From Halobaculum limi (GTDB taxonomy: Archaea; Halobacteriota; Halobacteria; Halobacteriales; Haloferacaceae), in NCBI RefSeq assembly GCF_029490015.1, contig NZ_CP120469.1:62001-126000 (forward strand): a stretch of 64,000 nt of DNA. The letters are read 5' to 3'. A program made the position numbers and the translations under genes. This document shows positions 2,491-39,924 of the stretch, one piece after another; position 1 is the first letter of the stretch, and each line of letters begins with the position of its first letter. The notes beneath the pieces are model-generated. The model was not told where the DNA came from and did no database searches. It saw only the letters and a program-made list of their open reading frames with translations.

Positions 2491-2527
2491 TGGTCGCGAG
2501 GCCCGACGACAGCATCGGGGTGGCGGC

Positions 2528-3721
2528 TCACTCCGCGAGCGATGCCGTCGCGTCAGCTGGTGGTTCCACTACTAGCACGCGTGCGACGAACACTGCACCG
2601 AGCAGCGCGAGCGTCGCCAACAGCAGCCACCCCTCGCGGTAGCCGAACGCGTCCGCGAGGTAGCCGAACGCGGGAGGAGCGAACAGCGCACCACCAGTGA
2701 GCGCGAGTTGGCCCCCGCCGGTCGCGCCACCCATCTCGTCGGCCGGTACCACCGTCGCCATACACGAGTAGTAGACGCCGGTAAACCCCAGGAGGAAGAA
2801 GCCGAGCGCGACGAACGCCGCGGTGGTCGCGAGTCGCCCATCGACGACCCCGACTGTCGCCAATAGGGCCGCACTCGCTACCGCTTGAACGAGCAACACG
2901 CCGCCGATCCGTCGTCGGGGGTCGCCCGGGAGCGCGTCGCTCAGCCAGCCAGTGACGACGCGCCCGACGCTCCCGGACACCTGAACCGCAGCCAGTACGA
3001 CGCCGCCGAACGCGACGGACGCACCCACAGTGTCGGTGACGTGGACGACGACGTACCCCGTCGTCGTGAACAGACCGGCACCGAGACACAGTCCGGCAGC
3101 GGTGAGCGCGCGGTAGGGGCGGTTCGCGAGCAGACGCCGAAAGTCGGGATAACTCGGCTCTCCGTGGGTCTCAGCATCGCGATACACGAGCCAGAACGCG
3201 GCGGCGACGACGCCGCCGACACCAGCGGCGACGTAGAAGCCCGCCTGCCAGTAGAGCACGCCCGCCAGTCCCGTCACGAGTAGGGCACTCGCGCCACTCC
3301 CCGCAGTGACGCCGACCTGCTTCACGCCGACGACGAGGTTGCGCCGCCCCGGCGGTGTGTTGTCGAAAACCGCCTTGTTCGTCCCGGGCATCGCCGTCCC
3401 GTACAACGACCCGAGCAAGAACGCACTCCCCAGTAACAGTGGGAACGACGGCGCGCGGGCGACGAGGAACGCGCCGACCGAGACGCCGACCAGTCCGACG
3501 GTGAGCATCCGACGCTCGCCGAACCGGTCGGTGAGCGCTCCCAGCGGAAGGAGGAACGTCGCGTAGCCGAGCGTGAGCGAGGTGACGACGAGGCCGACGG
3601 CCGCACCCGAGAGGTCGAACTCGGCCCGAAAGAACGGCGTCGCGGCGAACAGCGCGTAGTAACAGACCGACGCCGCGACCTGCCAGGTGAACACGAGGGT
3701 GACGACCCGGACGAGTCCCAT
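2528..3721 (-). CDS. MFS transporter
   Basis: A 397-residue, 12-helix major facilitator superfamily permease. The conserved loop between helices 2 and 3 is visible (GALTDRFGERRML), and the second half repeats the pattern in weaker form (TGWLSDALPGDPRRR). The ATG at 3721 is preferred over a possible start at 3904 because helix 1 follows directly (MGLVRVVTLVFTWQ) and the longer version adds a polar, arginine-rich lead that overlaps the neighbouring gene's 3' end. The substrate is unknown. It is the third gene of a minus-strand run after the rhodanese/MBL fusion and DUF2270 genes, with 109 nt between it and DUF2270, so cotranscription is possible but not certain. Confidence 0.85.
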   Translation of the reverse strand: MGLVRVVTLVFTWQVAASVCYYALFAATPFFRAEFDLSGAAVGLVVTSLTLGYATFLLPLGALTDRFGERRMLTVGLVGVSVGAFLVARAPSFPLLLGSAFLLGSLYGTAMPGTNKAVFDNTPPGRRNLVVGVKQVGVTAGSGASALLVTGLAGVLYWQAGFYVAAGVGGVVAAAFWLVYRDAETHGEPSYPDFRRLLANRPYRALTAAGLCLGAGLFTTTGYVVVHVTDTVGASVAFGGVVLAAVQVSGSVGRVVTGWLSDALPGDPRRRIGGVLLVQAVASAALLATVGVVDGRLATTAAFVALGFFLLGFTGVYYSCMATVVPADEMGGATGGGQLALTGGALFAPPAFGYLADAFGYREGWLLLATLALLGAVFVARVLVVEPPADATASLAE

Positions 3722-38238: not shown

Positions 38239-38264
38239 GTACCGTAGTCACTCGGGACCGGTTT

Positions 38265-38271
38265 ACCTAAA
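38265..38271 (-). promoter_or_regulatory. TATA box for flavoprotein gene
   Basis: On the minus strand TTTTAGG at 38271-38265, about 29 nt upstream of GTG 38238. It supports the GTG start. It borders the left side of the TnpB element. Confidence 0.5.
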
Positions 38272-38395
38272 ATGAGGCGCTAAGGCCCTTTCCTCAACGA
38301 GCGACCGAAGGGAGCGAGTAGGGAGGGGATACAGCGCCGCACGAGTAGCAAACACGTTCGACGCTCGGCCCACAGGCCCACGCAATCGTAACAAC

Positions 38396-38424
38396 TATAC
38401 GCATAAGTGCATATAATGCGTATA
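38396..38424 (+). promoter_or_regulatory. Perfect inverted repeat covering TATA region before RHH-TnpB genes
   Basis: TATACGCAT (38396-38404) / ATGCGTATA (38416-38424), spacer 11 nt (AAGTGCATATA), ending 2 nt before the GTG at 38427. AT-rich TATA-like elements lie within it. This is a strong candidate operator for the ribbon-helix-helix protein. Confidence 0.65.
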
Positions 38425-38426
38425 TA

Positions 38427-38546
38427 GTGAGACGGAAAAACATCACCATCCGCGAAGACCAAGCCGAGTGGATCGAGGAGAGCCACCTCAACCTCTCGTC
38501 GTTCGTTCGCGGACAACTTGACGAACTCATCGAAGAACGCTCGTGA
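38427..38546 (+). CDS. Ribbon-helix-helix (CopG-like) small protein upstream of TnpB
   Basis: 39 residues, start GTG 38427, stop TGA 38544-38546. Sequence in pieces: VRRKNITIREDQAEWIEESH then LNLSSFVRGQLDELIEERS. It has the short beta strand NITIRE, then helix-turn-helix with S-S-F-V-R in the turn, i.e. an Arc/MetJ-like RHH fold that dimerises and binds DNA. Its stop overlaps the tnpB GTG by 4 nt (GTGA), so both are translated from one mRNA. Small RHH genes are found upstream of tnpB in haloarchaeal elements. It is probably a repressor of the element through the inverted repeat just upstream. Confidence 0.72.
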   Translation: MRRKNITIREDQAEWIEESHLNLSSFVRGQLDELIEERS

Positions 38547-39763
38547 ACTACAACTACAGGTATCGACTCCGACCGTCCGACGCTCTCGAAGAACAGTTAG
38601 CGTGGACTGCCGATACCTGTAGACAGGTCTACAACCACTTCCTCCATCGCCTGAATCGCACCGACGACACGTCGGCATACAGCGAGCAGAAACGCTTGCC
38701 GAGTCTCAAGACGTGGTGGAACGACCTGAAAGACGTTCACTCGAAGGTTCTTCAGAAAGTCGTACAACGGCTGTACGATAACCTCTCAACGCTTCGTGGG
38801 CGTAAAGAGAATGGCTACCACGTCGGGACGCTCAAGTGGAAAGCCCCGGACGAGTACCGCAGTTTCACCTACAGTCAATCCGGCTTCAAGCTCAAGAACA
38901 CGAGCGGTCGGACAAGACTGTGGCTCTCGAAACTCGGAGACATACCCCTCATCTTCCACCGCGACCTGCCCGACGACGCCAAAATCAAGACTGTCACCGT
39001 CAAACGCGAACCCACCGGCAAGTGGTACGCTATCCTCGGCGTCGAAACCCCGGACGACTCGCCCGCGAAACCGGAGACTCCCGAGAAGTGCGTCGGTATC
39101 GACGTAGGGATTCTTAAGTACGCCCACGACACGGACGGAACAGCTGTCGAATCGTTCGATCTGTCCGATGAACGTGAGCGGTTGGAACGCGCCCAACGCG
39201 ACCTCTCGCGGAAGGAACACGGTTCCGCAAATTGGGAGAAACAGCGCCGTGTCGTGGCCGAGCGTCACGCCGAGTTGAAAAACAAGCGACGGGACTTCTT
39301 GCACAAGTTGTCAAACTACTACGCCCGCGAATACGACTTCGTGGCCGTGGAGGACTTGGACGCAAAGGGCTTGATCGAACTGCCTGGCAACTCGCGGAAC
39401 CGAGCGGGAGCGGCGTGGGGAACGTTCCTGCGGATGCTCGAATACAAGTGCAAACGCGAAGGAACGTATTTTGTCGCGGTGAATCCTCGTGGGACGACGA
39501 AAGAGTGTGCGTCCTGCGACGTTTCGACGGAGAAGCCGCTGTGGGTGCGCGAGCATTCGTGTCCGGCGTGTGGGTTTGAAGCGGACAGAGATGCGAACGC
39601 GGCGTGGAATATCCTGTCTCGCGGTATCAAGCTGTTAGGAGCGGGACGCTCCGAATCAACGCCTGTGGAGACTGCGCTCCCTGTGGATACCTCGGTATCT
39701 GCAAAGCGCGTCGTGGAAACAGGAAGCCCGACCCTCAAGCGCGAGCCGACAGGCGAGCGGTAG
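38543..39763 (+). CDS. tnpB: TnpB RNA-guided endonuclease (OrfB_Zn-ribbon)
   Basis: 406 residues, GTG start. It has all elements of a working TnpB: N-terminal HTH_OrfB-type domain (about 1-60), RuvC-I Asp187 in VGIDVGI, RuvC-II Glu270 in AVEDLDAKGL, zinc-ribbon Cys322-x-x-Cys325 and Cys340-x-x-Cys343, RuvC-III Asp350 in ADRDANAAWNI. The last 30 residues (KRVVETGSPTLKREPTGER) overlap the predicted right-end RNA. TnpB nucleases, as known from ISDra2, cut DNA at sites matching the guide taken from DNA beyond the right end, which helps keep the transposon. Here TnpA is missing, so transposition would need enzyme supplied in trans. The gene is translationally coupled to the RHH gene. Confidence 0.93.
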   Translation: MNYNYRYRLRPSDALEEQLAWTADTCRQVYNHFLHRLNRTDDTSAYSEQKRLPSLKTWWNDLKDVHSKVLQKVVQRLYDNLSTLRGRKENGYHVGTLKWKAPDEYRSFTYSQSGFKLKNTSGRTRLWLSKLGDIPLIFHRDLPDDAKIKTVTVKREPTGKWYAILGVETPDDSPAKPETPEKCVGIDVGILKYAHDTDGTAVESFDLSDERERLERAQRDLSRKEHGSANWEKQRRVVAERHAELKNKRRDFLHKLSNYYAREYDFVAVEDLDAKGLIELPGNSRNRAGAAWGTFLRMLEYKCKREGTYFVAVNPRGTTKECASCDVSTEKPLWVREHSCPACGFEADRDANAAWNILSRGIKLLGAGRSESTPVETALPVDTSVSAKRVVETGSPTLKREPTGER

Positions 39764-39780
39764 GGTGGGGTAGTTCACCG
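39630..39780 (+). ncRNA. Predicted omega/right-end guide RNA (sense-overlapping with tnpB 3' end)
   Basis: The tnpB 3' end has stacked perfect stems: GGAGCG (39638-39643) / CGCTCC (39647-39652), and GATACC (39686-39691) / GGTATC (39694-39699). The right-end box follows the stop codon (39763), and the DNA beyond about 39780 would be the guide. Sense-overlapping tnpB RNAs are documented in haloarchaea, and TnpB omega RNAs come from this place. Boundaries are my estimate; no promoter was identified. Confidence 0.55.
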
Positions 39781-39924
39781 CTATCGCCGGTGTGCTCTCC
39801 TCGTGCCATCCCGAACGGCGAATTGCCCCGTCGAGCGGGTTCATCGGCGTCTCGGGCGATTGCCGTCCCGCTGGAACTGCGCTAGTCGTATTTGTTGGCT
39901 GGCAGAAAAGTTCGTTTCGCAGCT

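Follow-up and report, generated by a model that had tools for sequence, protein, structure and literature searches.

A ribbon-helix-helix gene overlapping tnpB is a probable negative autoregulator of an IS1341-type element in Halobaculum limi

Introduction

TnpB, the ancestor of Cas12, is a very common nuclease family, and how its expression stays tolerable is largely unknown. Here we analyze a 64,000-nt stretch of the Halobaculum limi genome (contig NZ_CP120469.1, positions 62,001 to 126,000; referred to as the window) that contains a TnpB element in which tnpB is preceded by a gene for a 39-residue ribbon-helix-helix (RHH) protein. The CopG-type plasmid repressors and Arc, MetJ and omega are minimal RHH proteins that act on repeated half-sites at their own promoters. 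We detected no sequence similarity between these repressors and the TnpB-linked protein, and in the present case the controlled operon would be that of a TnpB element.

The closest parallel among RNA-guided systems is found in the type V-K CRISPR-associated transposons (CASTs), where the MerR-type regulator CvkR, which is made from a leaderless mRNA, represses cas12k and tnsB, and where two further groups encode predicted RHH regulators, Arc_1 and Arc_2, of 53-72 residues (PMC9938897). In both cases an RNA-guided mobile element encodes a small regulator beside a Cas12-type effector. However, the CAST regulators are divergent to cas12k and each type is confined to its own Cas12k group, whereas the TnpB-linked RHH gene is co-directional with tnpB and overlaps it, encodes 39 residues, goes with TnpB itself and has undergone many exchanges. 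Self-encoded repressors are therefore known for Cas12k CASTs, predicted RHH proteins included, but we found none for TnpB in the openly accessible literature searched; likewise, that literature yielded no description of an RHH or CopG protein together with TnpB, IS1341 or DUF2080.

The tnpB genes of Halobacterium also have a guide RNA overlapping their 3' ends (sotRNA or omegaRNA; Rfam RF02656/RF02657; PMC8303175, PMC12558985), although the omegaRNA in the window matches neither of these models. TnpB protein is scarcely detected in Halobacterium, and tnpB and omegaRNA levels are opposite (PMC12558985); this scarcity is consistent with a brake on the present element but is not evidence for one. 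In PMC8303175 and PMC12558985 we came upon no reference to a preceding RHH gene.

Results

The RHH gene is preceded by iterated half-sites

The following features make up the RHH-tnpB operon and its promoter region.

38427-38546, + strand: gene for the 39-residue RHH protein, a putative autorepressor (GTG start; dN/dS 0.11; homologue of the leading gene in MazF pairs)
38543-39763, + strand: tnpB, by family an RNA-guided nuclease (406 residues; NCBIfam guided_TnpB, E = 1.3e-87; Pfam match)
38396-38404 (core 38398-38404), + strand: putative operator half-site 1, (ta)TACGCAT (9-bp periodicity; class consensus)
38408-38414, + strand: putative operator half-site 2, TGCATAT (9-bp periodicity; class consensus)
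38417-38424 (core 38417-38423), + strand: putative operator half-site 3, TGCGTAT(a) (closing 2 nt short of the start codon)

The initial annotation had described a 39-residue RHH gene whose end overlaps the start of tnpB by 4 nt, and both open reading frames were confirmed, the overlap being GTGA. It was also right about TnpB, which has the RuvC residues D187, E270 and D350 and both zinc-ribbon cysteine pairs (C322/C325 and C340/C343). The RHH gene is under purifying selection, with a ratio of non-synonymous to synonymous substitution rates (dN/dS) of 0.11 over 1375 close pairs. An AlphaFold monomer model of low confidence (pLDDT 69.5) has an extended N-terminus followed by helices at residues 10-19 and 23-38, and the predicted DNA-contact residues are N or T just after a conserved Arg-Lys and T or S two positions further on (N5 and T7 in the window copy).

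A perfect 9-bp inverted repeat with an 11-nt spacer, which had been proposed as an operator-like dyad, lies at 38396-38404 and 38416-38424 and ends 2 nt before the RHH start, as described. Such repeats are not rare by themselves in the window (21 of comparable type, overlapping registers counted, versus 3-9 in shuffles), although the probability of a chance dyad within the local 64 bp was 0.0005; the weight of the dyad therefore rests on its conservation. Comparison with relatives showed that the perfect palindrome is not retained but that half-sites iterated every 9-10 bp are. The dyad is thus better described as the outer pair among three 7-bp half-sites spaced 9-10 bp, with centers 10 and then 9 bp apart; its place at the promoter and the conservation of the iteration stand, while the palindrome as such does not. 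In 42 non-redundant copies, self-identity at a lag of 9 between positions -36 and -1 was 0.416, versus 0.27 in dinucleotide shuffles (z = 10.7) and 0.286 in a control stretch farther upstream. The periodicity was found again in 24 non-redundant copies from a later scan (z = 9.0 against simple shuffles). Half-site 1 lies at about -31 to -23 of the predicted leaderless start, which we take to be the expected position of a haloarchaeal TATA box.

The operator tracks the RHH contact residues

We grouped the operators into classes by the two contact residues plus the residue preceding the first. The consensus is ATRCGCAT-n3-TRCGCAT-n2-TRCGTAT for the N,T class, to which the window copy belongs, TATACGTGTAACGTGCATANCGTGCATTACG for the T,T class, TTATTTGTGTATTTTGTGTATTATGTGGTGTG for the N,S class, and TTTAGTACGT..TTTGCATAA.TTATGGTGTG and relatives for the T,S class. 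As is typical of an RHH autorepressor, repeated half-sites at the gene's own promoter therefore covary with the residues of the strand.

Operator distance correlated with RHH distance after the effects of tnpB and the left end of the element had been removed (partial Mantel r = 0.57, P = 0.001; these tests treat pairs of related sequences as exchangeable and their P-values are indicative only). tnpB contributed nothing to operator distance (r = 0.04, P = 0.10) and neither did the left end, even though it and the RHH codons are equally near to the operator. With wider alignment shifts the values were r = 0.51 for the RHH and r = 0.02 for tnpB. We also compared matched pairs, i.e. those with helices at most 10% different and tnpB 5-16% different: operators were 80% identical when the contact residues were the same (189 pairs) and 52% identical when they differed (27 pairs), the random level being 37%. 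Between L101 and L112, the RHH cores differ solely by a strand change from N to T; the tnpB genes are 93% identical but the operators 58%.

Operator and RHH are exchanged as a cassette

Between the window copy (L042) and L112, identity is 94% in the left end and 86-92% in tnpB, but only 31% in the operator and 75-81% in the RHH DNA. Versus L101 the figures are 93% for the left end, 85-94% for tnpB and 50% for the operator, whereas L061, which shares the RHH class of the window copy, has an operator 67% identical and a tnpB 63-78% identical. Judging by these comparisons, operator and RHH vary together and are swapped between elements as a single unit. On a TnpB tree of 85 rows, which was built by a quick method and should be treated with care, the contact class combined with the label of the upstream gene changes at least 30 times, while the kind of upstream gene alone changes 9 times.

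These changes bear on whether the RHH gene could be an unexpressed relic with repeats left over. Decay of this sort would fit with the failure to detect a Y1 transposase in the host genome and with the relatives in which tnpB or the RHH gene is broken. However, the RHH gene is intact in nearly all copies and has the low dN/dS given above, and sites and contact residues have stayed matched through about 30 class switches, which makes a relic most improbable.

A model for repression of the RHH-tnpB promoter

The sequence data point to an IS1341-type TnpB element in which the RHH protein very probably acts as a negative autoregulator, i.e. as a brake. By analogy with other RHH proteins, dimers would bind cooperatively to the three half-sites, which lie about one helical turn apart, and so cover the promoter from the TATA-box position through to the start of the leaderless mRNA. 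Occupancy would keep transcription of RHH and tnpB from their shared promoter low, and with it the levels of TnpB and of the omegaRNA, which would be processed out of their joint mRNA. The 4-nt overlap would couple translation of tnpB to that of the RHH gene. In a naive cell, or when RHH levels fall, the promoter would open and a burst of TnpB would follow. The initial annotation proposed a cassette that controls itself and combines repressor, nuclease and guide RNA, and this proposal is supported at the level of sequence by the operon order, the promoter sites and the tracking of contact residues by the operator, and further by purifying selection on the RHH gene and covariation in the omegaRNA.

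Several results weigh against this model or limit the support for it. Linkage inflates the covariation between operator and RHH because the two adjoin, and the correlation specific to the strand was r = 0.22 once the helices were controlled for and larger shifts allowed. Blind hold-out assignment to five classes was correct in 14 of 24 cases, which equals the majority-class rate (P = 1e-4 versus shuffled labels), and rose to 21 of 24 only after post hoc merging of two classes that share contact residues. As for the protein, the pLDDT of the model is low, its family's Pfam matches fell below the gathering cut-offs (to CcdA in 35 of 54 RHH members, best 2.3e-4), and neither a PDB sequence search nor a Foldseek search with the model gave a match, which may arise because the 39-residue model is of low confidence. 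Finally, sequence does not tell repression from activation, and the RHH protein might activate the promoter, or might act mainly on other host promoters with tnpB as its carrier. We consider either role very unlikely, since the half-sites extend from the TATA-box position to the start and a genome search allowing up to 3 mismatches gave no second copy of the full operator.

The model of RHH repression could be extended by treating the operator-RHH cassettes as interchangeable specificity classes, comparable to the immunity groups of phages or the incompatibility groups of plasmids: an element already in the cell would, through its RHH, silence a newcomer of its own class, while a newcomer whose class differs, or an element that reaches a naive cell, would produce a burst of TnpB. 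Selection for escape from resident repressors would then explain the ~30 class changes among TnpB relatives. We regard this extension as possible but doubtful, and avoidance of the same class within genomes gave it no support (9 of 71 pairs were same-class versus 11.8 ± 3.3 expected, P = 0.25).

If repression by the RHH protein is correct, a widespread and mostly unannotated small gene would explain how TnpB is restrained in a large group of haloarchaea. The cassettes also provide a naturally occurring set of RHH-operator pairs that look orthogonal. Among them a change of one strand residue (N to T) accompanies an altered site, making both TnpB control and RHH specificity directly testable.

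Element boundaries

The element as a whole, including the features below, occupies 38267-39778.

38262-38266, + strand: TTTAC target, the likely transposon-associated motif (TAM), directly outside the left end (TTAC or TTAG precedes CTGAA-like left ends in dozens of copies)
38267-39778, + strand: IS1341-type (TnpB-only) IS200/IS605 element (sharp ends common to the copies)
38286-38328 (about), + strand: left-end subterminal hairpin (fold about -21 kcal/mol; kept in copies)
38367-38381, + strand: box GGCCCACAGGCCCAC (present in most copies, DUF2080-type elements included)
39726-39770, + strand: right-end subterminal hairpin, which is also the last omegaRNA stem, helix 5 (covariation structure and fold)

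The left junction reads TTTAC followed by CTAAAATGAG, the first base of the element being 38267, and the right end closes with GTTCAC, the last base being 39778, giving a length of 1,512 bp. The ends are sharp across copies of ~1.5-1.7 kb in differing contexts, and are fixed because copies with unrelated flanks share them. The bounds first given, 38396-39780, were therefore too narrow by ~130 bp on the left, where the element has a hairpin of its own, and differ slightly from the true right end. The RuvC residues and zinc-ribbon cysteines of TnpB, subterminal hairpins, a short fixed 5' target and the lack of inverted terminal repeats place the element in the IS1341-type branch of IS200/IS605.

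Because the ends of IS200/IS605 elements have subterminal palindromes (PMC3119063), the dyad could have been a transposon-end structure bound by TnpA, with the RHH reading frame incidental. The true left end, with its hairpin, is 70-130 bp upstream of the dyad, and the half-sites, unlike the ends, differ by RHH type; furthermore, the RHH gene is under purifying selection and there is no Y1 transposase to be detected in the genome. This interpretation is thus extremely unlikely and was rejected, the ends having been located elsewhere.

A search of the host genome (3.48 Mb, of which the contig containing the window makes up 429 kb) gave 11 OrfB_IS605 matches. No Y1 transposase was present within the element and none was detected by the whole-genome search, so the locus is not an IS605 element proper (tnpA plus tnpB). 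With 11 TnpB matches and no detectable Y1 transposase, the TnpB elements of this host look stranded, though the RHH-tnpB pair is intact. We sought an empty site in congeners; the flanking gene was located in five, where the intergenic stretch was not conserved.

Left ends are preceded by TTAC in one TnpB group and by TTAG in another (L039-L138 loci), and the TAM therefore probably differs between these groups. Box GGCCCACAGGCCCAC is found upstream of the promoter in most copies irrespective of RHH class; within it lies CCACAGGC, whose reverse complement, GCCTGTGG, occurs in the omegaRNA core.

The omegaRNA and predicted guide

39638-39778, + strand: omegaRNA scaffold overlapping the 3' end of tnpB (39638-39652, 39686-39699 and the right-end hairpin are among its helices)
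39779-39798, + strand: predicted guide CGCTATCGCCGGTGTGCTCT, directly after the right end (by analogy with known TnpB elements)

Both stems noted earlier (39638-39652 and 39686-39699) were confirmed, and they covary across 38 relatives. In the alignment of these relatives the omegaRNA has five helices and 35 pairs, with 96.9% of cells paired. Double changes occur at 13 pairs, in 95 cells, versus 22.7 ± 5.4 in shuffled alignments and 6-26 in slid controls; the slid control favors the structure because the latter was derived from the same alignment and the window sequence, and the weight of the evidence therefore rests on the double changes. A structured RNA at the tnpB 3' end that extends to the right end is as expected for an OMEGA TnpB system, although no Rfam model matched it even at E <= 1. 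By analogy, the sequence immediately 3' of the element would be used as the guide.

Related RHH genes head other nuclease and toxin operons

Of the more distant homologues that we inspected, four (L355, L356, L358 and L359) are the first genes of haloarchaeal MazF toxin-antitoxin operons. They encode ~78 residues with the same RHH start, and each overlaps a PemK/MazF gene by 1-4 nt; the one such gene compared with Pfam matched at E = 2e-24. The TnpB-linked operon resembles these in having a homologous RHH domain encoded upstream and shortly overlapping its effector gene; it differs in the effector and in lacking the ~40 C-terminal residues that follow in the MazF-linked proteins, the DNA-binding domain standing alone. 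The extension is of the kind expected for a toxin-binding tail.

The likeness in operon order, short overlap and RHH family raises the possibility that the RHH protein also binds TnpB directly and restrains it as a type II antitoxin would, in addition to autoregulating. However, a type II antitoxin has a toxin-binding C-terminal region, and TnpB-linked RHH proteins stop at 39-41 residues, straight after helix 2. Together with the free exchange of RHH class among TnpB lineages (~30 changes on the TnpB tree), this makes an antitoxin-like pair very unlikely; the presence of the DNA-binding domain alone argues for control of transcription rather than of protein activity.

In viral contigs (IMG/VR), RHH homologues lie directly before HNH endonuclease genes (L351-L353 and L354, at about 2500-3350; PHROG E = 3e-17 for L351-L353 and 2e-7 for L354), which suggests that viral homing-type nucleases are under the same brake. 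These gene neighborhoods make the RHH family look like an autoregulatory brake that is used with more than one kind of nuclease.

Distribution of the RHH-tnpB arrangement

Within the GTDB family, 74 of 170 genomes have the RHH gene, and it recurs in further families of the order and in a few lineages elsewhere in the phylum. tnpB lies downstream on the same strand at 97 of 100 RHH loci, nearly always within ~10 nt. Another set of 84 loci (80 from genomes and 4 from viruses) has tnpB on the same strand in 74; among the genomic loci without it, several break off soon after the RHH gene. RHH-tnpB is therefore a common haloarchaeal arrangement and not peculiar to the window copy. In named haloarchaeal plasmid records the RHH gene is often unannotated or a hypothetical protein, e.g. 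in Halorubrum lacusprofundi pHLAC01 it sits in the gap preceding HLAC_RS16485.

Two genomes from a different family of the phylum (G189 and G179) also have RHH homologues ahead of tnpB, with overlapping or near-overlapping starts (L213, L217, L218), and some of these tnpB genes belong to a clearly different TnpB lineage. The G189 genome (1.69-Mb contig) has 17 RHH-family matches, several ahead of differing tnpB lineages; at one of its loci (L212) three near-perfect 9-bp repeats, ATAAGTATA/ATATGTATA/GTAAGTATG, extend into the start codon.

Where relatives lack the RHH gene, its slot is often filled by a DUF2080-like protein or by the end of a Y1 transposase gene (tnpA; recognized by eye). The former, annotated as a 'putative transposon-encoded protein', shares with the RHH protein the slot, a similar length, the TnpB clade and the upstream box, but is unrelated in sequence, being AbrB-like by eye with a Pfam match below cut-off; it is possibly a second, unrelated regulator. 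Proteins of this kind precede tnpB at L244, L245, L248, L250-L252, L254, L260 and L264, and several of these loci have a TATA-proximal palindromic sequence.

Short inserts made of hairpin pairs, e.g. GACGAGACGC...GCGTCTCGTC with CACAAGAGC...GCTCTTGTG, resemble small mobile repeats. They occur between the left end and the promoter in L039, L040, L050, L052, L062, L072, L074, L085 and L086, and near the omegaRNA core at the 3' ends of L054, L062, L082 and L111.
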